Shown here: positions 56,718-64,000 of the stretch, one piece after another
How the letters are laid out: the number at the start of each line of letters is the position of its first letter
Position numbering within the stretch: position 1 is the stretch's first letter
Notes under the pieces: generated by a model
The model's input: the letters and a program-made list of their open reading frames with translations, nothing else
The model's database searches: none
Told to the model about the DNA's origin: nothing
Program-made: the position numbers and the translations under genes
NCBI GenBank assembly: GCA_004144175.1
Contig: SEFT01000001.1
Coordinates: 62,001-126,000 of the forward strand
Origin: Sphingobacteriales bacterium
Lineage (GTDB): Bacteria; Bacteroidota; Bacteroidia; Chitinophagales; Chitinophagaceae
Length of the DNA: 64,000 nt
Direction: 5' to 3'

Positions 56718-57032
56718 ATGACTCGGCTAAGGCAATTATTCCATTGCACACGCTTTTATATACGTCACAGCTTCGCATCACTGACGGTAAGCTGTTGCTT
56801 CATATATGGTGCGCTACAGTATGGCCTCGCTCCGCTTTTGGCGTGGTTGCCGTTGAAGGCGATAATCTCTGTTATTACTTTGTACTTTCTTTACCATTAC
56901 GACGGTAAGCAGATGTATCATTACTACAATCTACATATTTCTGTAAGGAAGTTATTGGGTGTCTACCTGGCGTATGATCTGCTTCTGTTCTTTGTCGTTG
57001 TTTGCGTCGCCAATGCTTTTCGAAGTGCCTAA
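56718..57032 (+). CDS. Small membrane protein, probable ABC permease partner
   Basis: A 104-residue membrane protein with about three helices (SFASLTVSCCFIYGALQYGL, then LAWLPLKAIISVITLYFLYH, and LGVYLAYDLLLFFVVVCVANA). Its 3' end overlaps by 20 bp the ATG (57013) of the ABC ATPase, so translation is probably coupled. The two form a minimal ABC unit. Its small size is unlike usual permeases, which is the odd feature. No family is recognised. An alternative reading is a small accessory protein, with the true permease elsewhere. Confidence 0.6.
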   Translation: MTRLRQLFHCTRFYIRHSFASLTVSCCFIYGALQYGLAPLLAWLPLKAIISVITLYFLYHYDGKQMYHYYNLHISVRKLLGVYLAYDLLLFFVVVCVANAFRSA

Positions 57033-57642
57033 GCTTATAGTAGATAGCGTGCAGATAAGCGTAGGAGATAGAAATCTCGTGACAGATTTGTATCTCGAAT
57101 GTAAAACCGGAGAAGTGATTGGCATATACGGGAGGAATGGATGTGGCAAGAGTATGCTGTTTAAAAGCATCTTTGGCACACATACGCCGCAGCAAATATT
57201 TGTAAGCATCGACGGGAAGAAAATCACCAGGCCATATTTGCGGCCAGGACTTATGGGGTATTTGCCACAGTTCCCCTTCATGCCTGAAAGCACAAATATC
57301 AAACGGTTGTTTATCGACTACGGCAATCATCCAGATGATTTTTTCAATCGCTTTCCGGATGAAGCATGGAAATACAGCATGAAGTTGGGCCAGCTTAGCA
57401 GCGGACAGGCCAGGCTTATAGAGTTTTATCTCATCCTGACAGGGCAATACCAATTTGTGCTACTAGATGAGCCATTCACCTTTATAGCTCCAGTACATAT
57501 CGAAACCTTTCAACGCATCATATCTGAAGAACGGAAGAAGAAAGGCCTACTTATAACAGATCATCAACACCAGTACGTGCAGCAACTAGCCGATAGAGAC
57601 TATATACTGGATAATGGAGCACTTAAAGCTGTCAATATTTGA
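57013..57642 (+). CDS. ABC transporter ATP-binding protein
   Basis: 209 residues from the ATG at 57013; an in-frame ATG at 56959 would lie inside the upstream gene. It is a complete nucleotide-binding domain: Walker A GRNGCGKS, signature SSGQA in LSSGQARLIE, Walker B VLLDEP, and an H-loop TDHQH. The Walker A Gly-Arg-Asn-Gly-Cys form and the small size suggest an atypical transporter or a lipoprotein/peptide-type exporter. It pairs with the 104-residue membrane protein in front. No substrate clue. Confidence 0.85.
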   Translation: MLFEVPKLIVDSVQISVGDRNLVTDLYLECKTGEVIGIYGRNGCGKSMLFKSIFGTHTPQQIFVSIDGKKITRPYLRPGLMGYLPQFPFMPESTNIKRLFIDYGNHPDDFFNRFPDEAWKYSMKLGQLSSGQARLIEFYLILTGQYQFVLLDEPFTFIAPVHIETFQRIISEERKKKGLLITDHQHQYVQQLADRDYILDNGALKAVNI

Positions 57643-57708: not shown

Positions 57709-60129
57709 TTACCAGTGGAAATCTATACGGTAGCTCAGATTAGGTAACATACCCAGCTGATATACTGTTTTTACTTTTCCAGCATCTGCATCGAAGTAAG
57801 AGAAATAGTAATTGCTGCGGTTTGTTACATTTTGTATATCAAGCTGGATGGTGTGTGTGGCTTTTTTGTTGTTGATCTTGTAGTACACGCTGGCATCCGT
57901 ACGGAAGTACGCAGGTGTCTGTTTGGTAAAGTATTTGTCGGCTACAAATTCGGTCTTACCGTTTGCCATTGATTTATTGATATCGATAACAGACTCGCGT
58001 AAGCCACCGCTGAATAATACTTTACCGTTCAGGCCGATGATCTTACGGCCGCTGGCAGTCAGTGGGAATTCCTTACCACCTATCAGGTTTACTTGATAGC
58101 CACGATTGAACTGTGAATTGTATGTTCTGCCTGCATAGTCGGTATAGGTAGCCTTGTAAACCGAACCGCTTGCCAGTACATAATAGTTGTTAGCAAATGG
58201 GCGCTCCAGGCTCAGATCAACACCATAATTGTCACCGGTACCCTGGCTTACCAGTGGCTTGTTTGTCGATAGCAGAGAATACATATCGTTTGCATTCAGC
58301 AGCGAGAAGCTTTTGTTGCTATCTGCTTCTACAGGTATATTGTAGTGCCTTTGATAGTACACTTCTGCTTTCAGGCGCATCTTCAGCGGCAGTGTGGTTT
58401 CGTAGCCCGCTACGGTATGCAGTGCACGCAGCATGTCCAGGTCCTTATTTGGATACTTGCGGGTTTCGCCGTCTTTTATATTCTCAAAATAGTAGGTTGA
58501 GATGTGCTCAGGCTTACTATGCAGTCCAGCCGACAAGGTGAATTTATTCTTATTAGGGGCATAGGTTACAGAAGCTCTTGGCTCTATCGCGTACTTCTGG
58601 TTCAATGCCAAGTAAGCACCATGCACACCACCTACTACGGTTACCTTTTCCGTTACACGCGCACGCCACTGCAGGTATGCCTGGTAGAACTGTGTGCTGC
58701 CATCGCCGGTCAATATATCCTTCCATTGCTTTTCAGAAGAGATGTATAGTTTATTATTCATGTCGTAAGCCAGGTGCTGTGCAATAACCCCGGTGCGGAA
58801 TGTATGCCGCGCATTCAGCTTCTGGTTATAGAGTACCGAAGCACGATAAGCGGTATTCGAAGACCTTGTATTGCTGGTGGGTACTTTATGATATCCTTCG
58901 GCCGGGTTGAGTGTGTCCGACTGCTCGGTGTGCTGATCGTAAGATCCGGATATGATCGTTTTCAGGTAAGCATCTTTGTGTATGAAATATTGATGCGATA
59001 TACCTACGGTGCCCATTTTGCCCCTGCTGTCGAAAGAGACATTCTCCGTATCATCATTCCATTTTGAGCTATCAGCAGGTGCATTTTGATAGGCTCTGTT
59101 ATAACCACCGATACCAAACGCTGAGAATGTTCCTGCTTTTTCTGTCGGCAGATTTATTTTGAAAGACATATCCTGATAGTCAGGCACGGTACCGCCAAGG
59201 TCCATAAAACTTTCTATCAGGTCAAGTGTAGAGTAACGGTAGTTGAAAAGGTAAGATGCCTTCTTCCCTTTTTTGAAGGGCCCTTCGGTTGCTATCTCCG
59301 CGCCTATGGTACCTATTTGCACCGTATGCTCGTAGCGCTCGGTATTGCCATTGCGGAAATTGAGATCAAATGCACCTGCTGTAGCGTTACCTATCTCTGG
59401 TGCAAAGGCTCCTGTATAAAAATCAGAGTTACCCAGTACGTTCGCATTCAGCATACTGATAGCGCCGCCAGTAGCGCCCAGTGAGCTAAAGTGATTCGGG
59501 TTGGGTATCTCAATACCCTCCAGGCGCCACAGTACACCTTTAGGTGAGTTGCCGCGAACAACGATGCTGTTATCCATATCGCCGCTGTTAGATACGCCGG
59601 GGAAGTTCTGCGCCATACGGGCAGGGTCAGCGAAAGAAGCTGCATATCTGCGTGCTTCATCTACCGAGAAGGATCGCGCGCTTACTGCTGCAAATTCGTT
59701 CATCGGTTTTATCCGGTCTTTACCCGCGCTTACAGTTACTTCTTTCAGCTGTTTCAGGCTTTCATTCATGGCTATGTTCAGCTCCAGTTCTTTCCCTGTT
59801 ATTACCATTGCTTCGGGCGCAGTGTAGGTTTCGTAACCCATAAAGCTGAACTGGAACGACTGGCGACCTACGGGGACATTGTTAAGGATAAAATAACCAT
59901 CATCATCTGTAGTGGCATTGACCTGGTTGTTGGAGAGTAATATGACAACGACGCCCGGCATCGGTTGCTTGGATGCTGCATCCAAAACACGGCCATGTAC
60001 TTTTTGCGATAGTTTGCTTTGCGCAGTAGTTACTGCGGTTTGTGTGTTTTCTTTTTCCTGTGCCACGGCTGTGGTCTCTATTGCCATTGCAGAAGCTGCG
60101 AGGATCAGGAATTTATTTATCTGCTTCAT
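57709..60129 (-). CDS. TonB-dependent receptor with carboxypeptidase-like N-domain
   Basis: An 806-residue outer-membrane receptor. Order: signal peptide (1-23), a carboxypeptidase-like regulatory domain (about 45-125), the TonB box LKEVTVSAG, a plug (with MAQNFPGVSNSGDMDNSIVVRGNSP) and a barrel ending in LSYRIDFHW, an aromatic end as in outer-membrane proteins. It is the last gene of the FecR/STN/repeat-protein run. Its leader carries the same bipartite motif as the repeat-protein gene 1.3 kb upstream, so both are probably under one sigma factor. Substrate unknown. Confidence 0.85.
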   Translation of the reverse strand: MKQINKFLILAASAMAIETTAVAQEKENTQTAVTTAQSKLSQKVHGRVLDAASKQPMPGVVVILLSNNQVNATTDDDGYFILNNVPVGRQSFQFSFMGYETYTAPEAMVITGKELELNIAMNESLKQLKEVTVSAGKDRIKPMNEFAAVSARSFSVDEARRYAASFADPARMAQNFPGVSNSGDMDNSIVVRGNSPKGVLWRLEGIEIPNPNHFSSLGATGGAISMLNANVLGNSDFYTGAFAPEIGNATAGAFDLNFRNGNTERYEHTVQIGTIGAEIATEGPFKKGKKASYLFNYRYSTLDLIESFMDLGGTVPDYQDMSFKINLPTEKAGTFSAFGIGGYNRAYQNAPADSSKWNDDTENVSFDSRGKMGTVGISHQYFIHKDAYLKTIISGSYDQHTEQSDTLNPAEGYHKVPTSNTRSSNTAYRASVLYNQKLNARHTFRTGVIAQHLAYDMNNKLYISSEKQWKDILTGDGSTQFYQAYLQWRARVTEKVTVVGGVHGAYLALNQKYAIEPRASVTYAPNKNKFTLSAGLHSKPEHISTYYFENIKDGETRKYPNKDLDMLRALHTVAGYETTLPLKMRLKAEVYYQRHYNIPVEADSNKSFSLLNANDMYSLLSTNKPLVSQGTGDNYGVDLSLERPFANNYYVLASGSVYKATYTDYAGRTYNSQFNRGYQVNLIGGKEFPLTASGRKIIGLNGKVLFSGGLRESVIDINKSMANGKTEFVADKYFTKQTPAYFRTDASVYYKINNKKATHTIQLDIQNVTNRSNYYFSYFDADAGKVKTVYQLGMLPNLSYRIDFHW

Positions 60130-60146
60130 AAGAAGATTTTGTATCA

Positions 60147-60184
60147 GTTTGAAATAGGACAGCTTTATTTGCTATTACCCCTAT
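60147..60184 (-). promoter_or_regulatory. ECF-type promoter candidate of the TonB receptor
   Basis: On the minus strand ATAGGGGTA (60176-60184), then 19 bp, then TATTTCAAAC (60147-60156). The spacer ends in GTCC, which gives a GTCcTA -10-like element. The same arrangement stands before the repeat-protein gene at 61415. Confidence 0.6.
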
Positions 60185-60209
60185 ATGGGCTGAAAGATTT
60201 TTTTAGGAA

Positions 60210-61415
60210 CTAGAATTTAAGTTGCACACCTGCTACACCACCTACGTAAAAGCCATAGAAATTTCCTTTGCTCCAGTCGCTCCACAGGTAGCTGGGTACG
60301 ATGTCTTCGCCACTATAGCTATTGTCATAGATCATCATATTGATGGTAGGGCCGGCAAATATTTCAACATTACTACCCAGCTTTATAGCAGGTAGTACAC
60401 GTAGGGTAGACTTCATGTTGGCATAGTTCCACATGTCGCTAAGGCCTGTGCAGCTGGCTTCAAGGTTCAGTCTGAAGTTTTTTGAAATAGGCAGGTGCGC
60501 ACCAAAACCAGCTTCTAAAGCGTAGAGTGTGTTGCCACTGTATCTGAAGTTATAACCCGCACCTATGATGCCATATAGCCTGCGGCTGCCCGAGCGCAAA
60601 GCTGCTATCGTCGTCATGCTTTCATCTACAGTCACACCCATATGCTTTTCGCCATTGCGAATGATGTTGATGAGGCCTATGGGGTATTCGCAGCTATCCG
60701 CAATGTTCATAAAGCCCGCTATCTGTGCTCCTTTTACTTTGCCGGCTACATTTACAAAGCCTGCTATCTGCGTATTTGCTTCAATAGCTACGTTGGCAAA
60801 GCCCGCTGCCTGTACCGGTGTTTCGCCTGCTACGTTTATAAAACCTGCTGCCTGCGCGCCTTCTACTTTTTCGCCTATATTGGCGAAGCCTGCCAGTTGT
60901 GGTCCCTTTACCTGCTCGGCTATATTGATGAAGCCAGCGCCTTGCATGTCTGTACGCTCGGCTATATTAATGAACCCCGCCAGTTGCGCACCATCTGCCT
61001 GTCTTATGGAGATATTTCCAAAACCTGCCAGCTGCGCTCCTTCAGCGCTGCCCGTAAGGTTCATGAAGCCTGCTGCCTGTACACCTTCTGCATGGTTGTT
61101 TACGTAGTTCATAAAGCCGGCCAGTTGTGCACCTCTTGCACTGTCATGAATGAAGTTGGCAAAGCCTGCTGCCTGCATACCCTCGGCATCTTCCATTATC
61201 ATATTGGCTATGCCTGATGCGCAAAATGCTTTTTCCGATTTTGACATGCCCGCTATCACATGTAGCGATACATCGTTGGTATAGTCCTTGGCCATTACAC
61301 CATTGCTGCTGATGGGGAAGATGAAGCCGATATGTAATGGACTTCTAAGTTCTTGTGCGAAAGTGGAACTAAGAGTAGTAAGTATGAGTGCGATTGTACT
61401 AAGTAACGTTTTCAT
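60210..61415 (-). CDS. Secreted AGFxN-repeat protein without STN domain
   Basis: 401 residues from the ATG at 61415 (signal peptide MKTLLSTIALILTTLSSTFAQ; the in-frame TTG at 61442 is rejected). Residues about 67-241 consist of about 12 units of 14-17 residues, each AGFxN(I/V/F) followed by G(A/V)Q, e.g. LAGFGNIS, AAGFINVA, IAGFMNIA. This should fold as a beta-solenoid. The C-terminal ~140 residues (about 260-401) are beta-barrel-like and end GVQLKF. The same repeat and C-terminal domain occur in the neighbour at 61483. The repeat resembles surface-repeat proteins of Leptospira (LA_2272 type) as I remember them, uncertainly. Confidence 0.75.
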   Translation of the reverse strand: MKTLLSTIALILTTLSSTFAQELRSPLHIGFIFPISSNGVMAKDYTNDVSLHVIAGMSKSEKAFCASGIANMIMEDAEGMQAAGFANFIHDSARGAQLAGFMNYVNNHAEGVQAAGFMNLTGSAEGAQLAGFGNISIRQADGAQLAGFINIAERTDMQGAGFINIAEQVKGPQLAGFANIGEKVEGAQAAGFINVAGETPVQAAGFANVAIEANTQIAGFVNVAGKVKGAQIAGFMNIADSCEYPIGLINIIRNGEKHMGVTVDESMTTIAALRSGSRRLYGIIGAGYNFRYSGNTLYALEAGFGAHLPISKNFRLNLEASCTGLSDMWNYANMKSTLRVLPAIKLGSNVEIFAGPTINMMIYDNSYSGEDIVPSYLWSDWSKGNFYGFYVGGVAGVQLKF

Positions 61416-61426
61416 TTTTTTCTGTT

Positions 61427-61464
61427 GTTTGAAATACGACAACAGAAAAGAGAACTACCCCTAT
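61427..61464 (-). promoter_or_regulatory. ECF-type promoter candidate of the repeat-protein gene
   Basis: On the minus strand ATAGGGGTA (61456-61464), 19 bp, TATTTCAAAC (61427-61436); the spacer ends in GTCG. Both halves and the spacing are identical to the copy at 60147-60184. Confidence 0.6.
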
Positions 61465-61482
61465 TGTATCCGCAACAAAACT

Positions 61483-63279
61483 TTAGAAGATGCTGATGCC
61501 TACATGCCCGCCTATCCAAGATGCAGTGGTCTCATCGCGGTAAAGACTCCGTACACCATTACCCGGTATTTGGGTACGGAAACCCTCCGCGGCAATGGTA
61601 GATTCGGCTACATATAGCGATATAGAGGGGCCTGCGTAAATGGCTAAGTAGGGAGTGATATGATAAGTAAGGTCAGCTTGCAATTTCATTAGATTATTCA
61701 CGTTCCACTCGCCGAGAAAAAGATACTGTGCAGTCAGTTCAGGATTGATGGAAAGATGTTTTGTGAGTGAAACTTCTGTGCCCATTCCGTACCCCCATGT
61801 TACTACTTTGTTGGCTCCGTCACCATTCCAGCCACCCAGCAGAATGCTATACAGTTTCTTATTGCCAGCTTTGAATGTGGCATTGTACCTGGTAAGCTCA
61901 TTGATGGAGTAAGAAAGCTTATGATAACCTTTTCTTACAAGGTTTAGGATGCCTATGCTGTAGCCTGATGAGGTATCGGCTATATTGATGATGCCTATTT
62001 GTACGCCATCCAGTTTTCGTGCATAGTTGAATAGCCCCGCTATCTGCACGCCATTCATCTCCTTTCCTGCAATATTACCTAGTCCTGCTATTTGCGTACC
62101 ATCCACATTCCTTGCGCCGAGGTTGGCCAGCCCGCCTATCTGCACTCCATCGGCGTCGCCACCTGTATAGTTCGTAAGCCCAGCTATCTGCGCTCCATCG
62201 GTTTTTAACCGCGTATAGTTGGTAAGGCCTGCTATCTGTGTTCCATCCACATCATATTGCACATGGTTGTACAGCCCTGCTATTTGTGCGCCATATGCGC
62301 TTCCCAACAGCATATTGCTTAGACCAGCAACCTGTACGCCGTCCATCGAATCCAGAACATGATTGTACAACCCGGCTATCTGAGCACCCGTTACCCTACC
62401 TCCAGTTACGTTGAACAAGCCTGCTATCTGCGTATACTTAGCCTCATTTTTTACAATATTAAATAGCCCCCCTACCTCTACACCCTCCACACCCGCTGCA
62501 TAGCCGCCAAATATGTTGAAGGATATTTTATTCGTCACCTGTCCGCCCATCTTGCCATGTGTGCCAATGCCGGGCAATACAGATGCCTGGTAGGGCATCT
62601 CTACAAAGAACTTATTGATGTTCAGGCTTTGCATTTTTTGCTTTCCTGACAAGAAGAACTTTCCAAGCCAGGTGTCTTCTACGCCCGAATGTGGGCTAAT
62701 TACTATGGAATCGAGTGCAAAGGACTTGGGAGCTATGGATAATGTCAGCTCTTGCTCGGCACCCGGCTTTACAGATAGCGAAGTATCGCTGTACCATGCT
62801 TTGCTGATACTAAGGGTAGCAGGCTGCATGCGGTCTTTTAGCTTCAGCTTGAAATAGCCCTGGGCATTGGTGAGTGAGGCTACCAGCTGGTTCTTTTCAT
62901 ATACGCTGGCATTCTCTATCCGTTCACCGGTGGTTTCATCTACTATATATCCGCTGATATACCAGTAGCCGGGCGAGCGTTGCAGGATAATGTAGTTATC
63001 CTTCTCTTTGTATTCTATACTGCCATCAAACAGTAGATCTAACAGCTGTCTTACCGTTTTGTTATTCGAATTTATAGTTACCAGGCTGTCTTCGCGGATG
63101 ATATTGCTATTGTAGGAGAAATAGAAATTGCCTTCTTTTCCTATGGATTTGAGGACTTCCTTTACAGGTTTTTTATTGGCTTGTATCGCCACTATTTTAT
63201 TCAGCAATTGCTGGGCAACTGCTATATGTGAGAACAAAGCAAAAATGATAACTAACAGAAGCTTGTTAAAGCGAAACAT
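61483..63279 (-). CDS. STN and carboxypeptidase-like protein fused to AGLxN repeats
   Basis: A 598-residue exported protein (signal peptide ending VAQ at about 23). An STN domain (about 28-100) normally contacts the FecR C-terminal domain in the periplasm. A carboxypeptidase-like domain (about 107-182) and a TonB-box-like LDSIVISP (189-196) follow. No plug domain is present. Instead, from 268 to about 448 there are about 11 units of the pattern IAGLxN...G(A/V/T)Q, and a C-terminal barrel-like part ends GGHVGISIF. It lies 15 bp after the FecR gene, so FecR is its expected partner. The protein looks like a signal transducer in which a repeat domain replaces the receptor barrel. Confidence 0.8.
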   Translation of the reverse strand: MFRFNKLLLVIIFALFSHIAVAQQLLNKIVAIQANKKPVKEVLKSIGKEGNFYFSYNSNIIREDSLVTINSNNKTVRQLLDLLFDGSIEYKEKDNYIILQRSPGYWYISGYIVDETTGERIENASVYEKNQLVASLTNAQGYFKLKLKDRMQPATLSISKAWYSDTSLSVKPGAEQELTLSIAPKSFALDSIVISPHSGVEDTWLGKFFLSGKQKMQSLNINKFFVEMPYQASVLPGIGTHGKMGGQVTNKISFNIFGGYAAGVEGVEVGGLFNIVKNEAKYTQIAGLFNVTGGRVTGAQIAGLYNHVLDSMDGVQVAGLSNMLLGSAYGAQIAGLYNHVQYDVDGTQIAGLTNYTRLKTDGAQIAGLTNYTGGDADGVQIGGLANLGARNVDGTQIAGLGNIAGKEMNGVQIAGLFNYARKLDGVQIGIINIADTSSGYSIGILNLVRKGYHKLSYSINELTRYNATFKAGNKKLYSILLGGWNGDGANKVVTWGYGMGTEVSLTKHLSINPELTAQYLFLGEWNVNNLMKLQADLTYHITPYLAIYAGPSISLYVAESTIAAEGFRTQIPGNGVRSLYRDETTASWIGGHVGISIF

Positions 63280-63294
63280 GGTTAGAGGTTATAA

Positions 63295-64000
63295 CTACTT
63301 TATGAAAATATCCGACCCCTCTCTGCTTATGCTCACGTTATTATACGTCTCTCCTATTATGCTCAATATCATATCCAGAGATTCGTTGCTGAAGGTAGTG
63401 GTGATCGGCAGGTTCTTTACTCTGTCCGACACCTTTATATGTACACCATACGCTTCGCTCAGCACATCGGCCAGTCTCCAGAGCGGCGTGCCGTTGCAAA
63501 CAAACTCTTTTGTGCGGTAGTAGTTATATAATTCGTCATCACTGGTTTGTTTAATAGGCTGGTCTTGGTTTTTCAGTACGGTAGCTTTTTCATGTCGGCT
63601 CAGTTTTACCCCAAAGTCTTTCTTTGCCACTTCTACAACGCCTGTTTCTACTATGACCTCTGTTTTTTCGTCAGAGCCTTTGATGTTAAAAGAAGTCCCC
63701 ACTACCCTCACATTTACATCATCCACCTGCACAATAAAAGGTTTGCTTTTATTCGGCGTTACATTAAAGAATGCCTCACCTTCCAGTGTCACTTTTCTGT
63801 TATCCCCGTCAAATGATTCCGGGTACGTAAGCACAGATGCCTTATTGAGCGTAACAACAGAGCCATCCGGCAGGGTTTGTACCAAAGTGCCGCTCTCCGA
63901 CCGCAATGCAATCATAGCAGGCGTGCCATTGCCAATGAAGTAATAGAGCAGGCCCGCCATACCTGCTAGTAATACAATGGCTGCTGCTACACGCATCCAA
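63295..64000 (-). CDS. FecR-family anti-sigma factor (N-terminus outside the window)
   Basis: The visible 235 residues begin inside the reading frame; a Trp codon precedes the first Met, so the cytoplasmic N-terminus lies beyond the window. After a membrane helix (VAAAIVLLAGMAGLLYYFI) come the FecR domain (about 35-130; TLPDGSVVTLNKAS, ESFDGDNRKVTLEGEAFFNV, VVGTSFNI) and the C-terminal DUF4974-type domain (about 165-235; VLSEAYGVHIKV, PITTTFSNESLDMIL). FecR proteins relay a signal from an STN-bearing outer-membrane protein to an ECF sigma factor. That sigma gene is expected just beyond the right edge. Confidence 0.9.
   Translation of the reverse strand, partial: WMRVAAAIVLLAGMAGLLYYFIGNGTPAMIALRSESGTLVQTLPDGSVVTLNKASVLTYPESFDGDNRKVTLEGEAFFNVTPNKSKPFIVQVDDVNVRVVGTSFNIKGSDEKTEVIVETGVVEVAKKDFGVKLSRHEKATVLKNQDQPIKQTSDDELYNYYRTKEFVCNGTPLWRLADVLSEAYGVHIKVSDRVKNLPITTTFSNESLDMILSIIGETYNNVSISREGSDIFIK

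Follow-up and report, generated by a model that had tools for sequence, protein, structure and literature searches.

Gene organisation

The stretch analysed here, hereafter the window, is 64,000 nucleotides long and comes from the genome of a Sphingobacteriales bacterium (Bacteroidota, Chitinophagaceae; GenBank assembly GCA_004144175.1, 4.34 Mb in 93 contigs; positions 62001-126000 of contig SEFT01000001.1, C24 in our numbering). At its right end lies part of a minus-strand operon unit that comprises, in the order of transcription, an extracytoplasmic function (ECF) sigma factor, a FecR anti-sigma factor, a protein that we call STNrep, a second repeat protein (REP2) and a TonB-dependent receptor (TBDRA). 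The window ends inside the FecR gene; coordinates past 64000 were extrapolated from a 16 kb locus (L002), the window coordinate being the L002 coordinate plus 57000. The FecR gene (63295-64000 within the window, and on to ~64284) has a GTG start and encodes 329 residues, with PF04773 (FecR) and PF16344 (FecR_C) both above their Pfam cut-offs. Extension past the window end placed the sigma gene directly upstream of it, at ~64298-64864, and the sigma protein matches TIGR02985, the FecI-like ECF model, with 163.6 bits. Downstream of FecR follow STNrep (61483-63279, 598 aa), REP2 (60210-61442, 410 aa, with a likely ATG start near 61415) and TBDRA (57709-60129, 806 aa). According to the open reading frame list, the gaps among the four genes reached by the window are 80, 40 and 15 bp, which agrees with the closely spaced minus-strand run described in a first-pass annotation of the sequence.

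In TBDRA, Pfam finds a CarbopepD_reg domain and a Plug domain below threshold (19 bits, cut-off 23.9). The receptor has no Pfam STN domain, and a purpose-built STN profile gives 4.8 bits only. REP2, which likewise lacks STN, has no match in Pfam and none in NCBIfam at E ≤ 0.1. The top Foldseek matches of its model (predicted local distance difference test score, pLDDT, 77) are barrels of the kind that the STNrep model retrieves (see below), the best at E 1.6e-3.

Architecture and predicted fold of STNrep

STNrep is predicted to consist of a signal peptide, an STN domain, a carboxypeptidase-like domain (CPD), a disordered linker, an array of 16-residue repeats and a C-terminal eight-stranded barrel. 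Pfam reports STN at 28.9 bits (cut-off 28.4) together with CarbopepD_reg_2. In the AlphaFold model (mean pLDDT 82) the STN domain occupies residues 29-101 and the CPD residues 105-182, and two stretches of low confidence follow at residues 188-198 and 211-246. Ten AGLxN-type motifs with an exact 16-residue spacing lie between residues 270 and 414, with Q and N at constant positions. Each repeat is modelled as one strand of seven and one of four residues with pLDDT above 90, and the array is followed by eight longer strands that extend to the C-terminus. The repeat corresponds to the LA_2272 repeat of NCBIfam (NF047436; 32.6 bits, cut-off 25). We rejected a chance origin of the repeat because the 16-residue spacing recurs in relatives; strict AGLxN copies are fewer in most of them than in the window protein. 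In a set of 30 homologues, all have a Pfam match to the CPD and 28 one to STN; the seven Pfam families matched by the set at E ≤ 0.01 do not include Plug. The plug-less combination of STN, CPD and AGLxN repeat that had been read from the sequence is thus borne out by Pfam, by NCBIfam and by the homologues.

A Foldseek search with the STNrep model retrieves a transthyretin-like CPD (E 1.3e-4) and, weakly, the eight-stranded barrels OmpA (2.2e-3), NspA and OprF (both ~2e-2). STNrep ends in Phe; of 121 unique proteins, 98 have this terminal residue. The short strands of the repeats with their ladders of Q and N would fit a solenoid better than membrane strands, and no clear solenoid is present among the 50 Foldseek matches listed for each of the STNrep and REP2 models. 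A C-terminal barrel with an even number of strands would place the repeats on the periplasmic side. The repeats may indeed be periplasmic because they sit between the barrel and the STN-CPD part, and the latter can reach FecR only in the periplasm; the earlier notion of “surface” signalling by the repeat is not supported in that form.

A TonB-box-like string, LDSIVIS, follows the CPD of STNrep. Such a string is found in 22 of 110 proteins, the window protein included (shuffled rate 1/2200), so that we rejected the view that a TonB box defines these proteins. Together with the STN-CPD arrangement, the string in close relatives suggests an STN-CPD TonB receptor as the ancestor, whose plug and barrel would have been replaced.

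Conservation of the gene order

A search of 99 related genomes with STNrep gave matches in 49 at E ≤ 1e-6, many of them STN-CPD receptors. We examined 72 loci of 6-16 kb: the window locus, 31 homologue stretches, and 40 stretches chosen across families from searches with the repeat-barrel module in 298 genomes of the order (66 matched) and 296 of the phylum (76 matched). For scanning contigs, a single protein gave no match and an alignment-based scan did. A further 80 named loci are the best 80 of 477 confirmed in a separate scan, and their genomes partly overlap with those of the 72 loci.

STN is joined to the repeat-barrel in 55 of the 72 loci. In 53 of these 55 the FecR gene lies directly upstream on the same strand; the two exceptions are L047, which lacks FecR, and L068, which begins at a contig end and in whose genome a matching sigma-FecR pair is found at the end of another contig. 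The sigma gene is next after FecR in 47 of the 53. In the named loci FecR is directly upstream in 72 of 80 and sigma next in 70; one further locus starts where its contig does, and in two others the contig stops short of the position of the sigma gene. The genera that possess these genes include cultured strains of Chitinophaga, Dyadobacter, Taibaiella, Niastella and Pedobacter.

A receptor gene is present in 31 of the 55 loci and, in 39 of the 80 named loci, among the four genes downstream. The commonness of STN-less receptors of the TBDRA type would suit a split receptor, in which TBDRA senses the ligand, passes it to STNrep as its detached STN arm, and is both sensor and output. The TonB-box-like string after the CPD of STNrep would fit such an arrangement, as would the promoter-like site described below, which precedes receptor genes in 38 of 219 cases. 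However, 24 of the 55 loci have sigma, FecR and the STN-repeat gene and show no such receptor within their 6-16 kb, and the string is confined to 22 of 110 proteins. We regard a split receptor as unlikely.

A promoter-like site common to the operon and its candidate targets

The upstream regions of the sigma genes have in common a site of the form TAGGGGTA-N12-GTTGTC, whose layout we take to resemble the -35/-10 pair of ECF promoters. The first box occurs in 57 of 89 non-redundant sigma upstream regions, whereas no 8-mer exceeds 11 regions in any of five shuffles. If the second box may have one mismatch, both boxes are found in 82 of 118 regions (copies included) and in 0-2 of 118 in ten shuffles, and the spacer is 12 in 78 of the 82. 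In the window and its extension, all on the minus strand, the site precedes the sigma operon (64929-64954, no mismatch), lies in the gap between STNrep and REP2 (61438-61463, no mismatch) and precedes TBDRA by 28 bp (60158-60183, one mismatch).

Across 152 loci there are 257 sites within two mismatches, against 8 in one shuffle. After removal of copies, 219 remain; the following gene encodes a sigma factor in 84 cases, a repeat protein without STN in 54, a receptor in 38, a DUF2807 protein in 19, FecR in two, a receptor with CPD in one and another protein in five, and no gene follows in 16. Median distances from the site to the start of the longest open reading frame are 16 nt for sigma genes, 21 for STN-less repeat proteins, 22 for receptors and 44 for DUF2807 genes. 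With at most one mismatch the window genome contains six sites and none for the reversed control; four of them precede sigma, REP2, TBDRA and a DUF2807 gene, the fifth lies ~130 bp before the gene of a 452-aa protein, and the sixth, on contig C30, is inside an open reading frame and probably due to chance. The same threshold gives 64 matches in 15 genomes of the genus and 13 for the control. TBDRA and REP2 bear the site of the sigma operon, which makes the receptor look like an output, as the first-pass annotation had proposed.

Could the site be a general promoter of FecI-like sigma genes? For comparison we used the TIGR02985 sigma genes of four relatives (398 matches, 30 loci), 27 of which are outside the STNrep system. 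Within 400 nt upstream, none of the 27 has the site at two mismatches, and a single one has it at three mismatches, far upstream; a general role was therefore rejected. We also inspected ten stretches around further sites, among them one with a sigma gene of the STNrep system on a broken contig (L287). Further regulon candidates (L281:856-2229, L284:1518-2945 and L289:871-1275) are scattered and non-recurrent, each in one genome, and were rejected.

Proposed signalling pathway

On the basis of sequence comparisons, the genes probably belong to an operon for cell-surface signalling of the FecI/FecR type that regulates itself and whose outer-membrane transducer would be STNrep and not a TonB receptor. 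It is the recurrent gene order and the shared sites that make STNrep look like the transducer and the receptor like an output. The C-terminal barrel would anchor STNrep in the outer membrane, as suggested by the model, the weak fold matches and the C-terminal Phe. By analogy with FecA/FecR, PupB/PupR and FoxA/FoxR, its STN domain may dock on the C-terminal domain of FecR. In such pairs STN binds the FecR C-terminus, by which, in FoxA/FoxR, the anti-sigma factor is protected in the absence of signal (PMC11637429, PMC9249621). Docked STNrep would likewise steady the anti-sigma factor, and a change perceived by the repeats and barrel could alter docking, lead to processing of FecR and free the sigma factor. 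From the TAGGGGTA-N12-GTTGTC sites the latter would then transcribe its own operon, REP2, TBDRA and the DUF2807 lipoprotein gene. REP2 lacks STN but otherwise duplicates the sensor module; it is probably a decoy or a partner at the surface, with feedback on sensing.

Several observations weigh against this interpretation. Neither the STNrep nor the REP2 model has a barrel match in Foldseek at E 0.001 or better. The STN-repeat gene has no adjacent FecR in 7 of the 80 named loci, and 6 of the 53 FecR genes have no adjacent sigma gene. The strict site is absent from 36 of the 118 sigma regions, and of three STNrep-system sigma genes in the control set one has an exact site, one a site with two mismatches and one none. 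At two mismatches the window genome gives 27 matches, the same number as the reversed control, and at three mismatches the window gives 6 where 3.9 are expected, with as many in 19 of 100 shuffles; only close matches therefore carry weight.

Repeat-barrels on Dma-like proteins and the nature of the signal

In five loci (L067 and L072-L075) the repeat-barrel module ends proteins of 696-781 aa that share a similar N-terminus and a long tether and are encoded directly after an ECF sigma gene. A hydrophobic stretch around residue 50 is clear in L072, L074 and L075 and marginal in L073; in L067 the stretch near this position is not the most hydrophobic segment of the protein. STNrep alone finds the L067 protein with E 6e-38. 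In a tree of 61 module rows a single branch (99/93) sets the five proteins apart from the others, and the REP2-type copies require five label changes. An adjacent ECF21 sigma gene is one mark of Dma anti-sigma factors. The three sigma factors of these loci that were scanned match best with TIGR02952 (92-107 bits, below cut-off) and not with TIGR02985. The proteins recall Dma2, which is described as an anti-sigma domain, a transmembrane helix, a tether and a barrel, and as controlling vesicle formation; in Bacteroides this process is placed under the control of Dma1/2 (PMC13088901). Common to both systems would be the control of an anti-sigma factor by an outer-membrane barrel, and in these five relatives the module is part of a single polypeptide whose gene follows that of an ECF sigma factor. 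The window system differs in that the link consists of two proteins, FecR and STNrep, whereas Dma is a single protein.

A DUF2807 gene is present in 40 of the 55 STN-repeat loci, in all five Dma-like loci, where it precedes the sigma gene, and in none of the 12 other module loci. Congeneric loci that show it have it after the receptor. In the window genome it lies on another contig, alone on C54 (L192:3397-4056, minus strand), with the site ~43 bp upstream, and its product has a lipobox-like start. The place after the receptor is held in the window by a gene for an ABC-transporter ATPase (56959-57639, plus strand), convergent with TBDRA.

What might STNrep sense? It is possible, though somewhat doubtful, that the pathway responds to envelope stress, monitoring the state of the outer membrane or barrel assembly with no ligand involved, and that STNrep probes folding or the membrane. 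This proposal concerns the signal and is compatible with STNrep as the transducer of a FecI/FecR-type operon. The module is of an outer-membrane barrel type and recurs on the Dma-like one-piece anti-sigma proteins, and Dma1/2 are tied to vesicle formation. The distribution of DUF2807 points in the same direction, this domain being assigned to the Toastrack group, which is connected with envelope stress (PMC11237479). On the other hand, Toastrack proteins are argued there to be intracellular, whereas the DUF2807 protein has a lipobox-like start, and a Porphyromonas DUF2807 protein is reported as an adhesin (PMC10949514). As a broader and still tentative proposal, to which we give not quite an even chance, the repeat-barrel could be a general outer-membrane sensor head for sigma control in Bacteroidota, wired to two sigma lineages, by a non-covalent STN-FecR joint in one and a covalent, periplasmic Dma-like tether in the other; the window system would then watch the state of the outer membrane and not ligand uptake, and its regulon of REP2, the receptor and the DUF2807 lipoprotein would be a surface-remodelling response.

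Comparison with known systems

Systems of the FecI/FecR/FecA type, including the STN-SusC systems of Bacteroidota, share with the window operon the FecI-like sigma factor, a FecR with FecR_C, an STN partner in the same operon and a promoter-like site of the autoregulation type. In contrast, the STN carrier of the window is plug-less and ends in a repeat array and a small barrel, and its TonB receptor, devoid of STN, is a probable target. In SusC receptors a CPD-type extension precedes STN (PMC7782687), the reverse of the STN-CPD order in STNrep. PUMA3/VreA of Pseudomonas aeruginosa also combines an STN protein devoid of a TonB-receptor barrel with a sigma factor and a FecR-like anti-sigma factor. 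VreA is, however, small and mostly soluble with a TolA/TonB-like C-terminal domain, where STNrep has a CPD, repeats and a predicted barrel (PMC2729926). The model of the LA_2272 surface repeat, matched above cut-off, spans about two repeats, to which STNrep adds the STN-CPD part and the regulation. The VC2662 family (NF047437) is matched with 25.2 bits, far under its cut-off of 140. The annotation name “STN and carboxypeptidase regulatory-like domain-containing protein” exists in Parabacteroides (PMC12893687). We found no description of STN-repeat transducers in the literature searched, which was largely without subscription journals; VreA is a precedent for an STN protein without a receptor barrel.

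In the usual account of FecIR signalling the receptor reports its own ligand. The Bacteroidota family described here appears to split sensing from transport and to place the receptor under the control of the sensor. The predicted promoter could be used directly as a reporter, and cultured strains exist for the named genera that carry the genes. Because the repeat-barrel module appears to connect FecIR- and Dma-type regulation, what outer-membrane anti-sigma barrels sense becomes testable.

Neighbouring genes

About 2.4 kb past the window end, a second system starts on the opposite strand at ~66395 (L002:9395-16000) and comprises sigma, FecR, an STN-CPD-plug receptor, DUF4249 and a CPD-plug receptor. 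The STN domain of the first receptor is not reported by Pfam and was found with the purpose-built profile (E 3.9e-6). An STN-TonB receptor thus does lie just outside the window, where one serving the window FecR would, according to the first-pass annotation, have been a counter-indication. Its proximity would suit the idea that STNrep gained STN-CPD by fusion and is no transducer, FecR being governed by the divergent receptor or by none; the seven named loci in which the STN-repeat gene has no FecR would agree with this. But the divergent system has its own sigma and FecR genes, the latter and the window FecR being the two found in a search of the genome, and within the 16 kb of L002 a site with up to two mismatches is present only before sigma, REP2 and TBDRA. 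We therefore rejected the divergent receptor as partner of the window FecR. The fusion idea is also at odds with the position of FecR directly before the STN-repeat gene (53 of 55 and 72 of 80 loci) and with the presence of STN in 28 of 30 homologues, and is highly improbable.

Some further arrangements were noted. STN-repeat genes stand without neighbouring FecR or sigma in L142, L149, L155, L156, L173, L182 and L190, all Chitinophaga records. In L080, L083, L084, L085, L090 and L096 no recognised sigma gene adjoins FecR and the STN-repeat gene. L103-L110, from other families of the phylum, contain stand-alone repeat-barrel genes and no recognised sigma, FecR or DUF2807 gene in the stretch. 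Two minus-strand genes lie between the two sigma systems of L002, one for a 109-aa protein without a Pfam match (L002:8780-9109) and one for a LuxR-type response regulator (L002:7992-8633).

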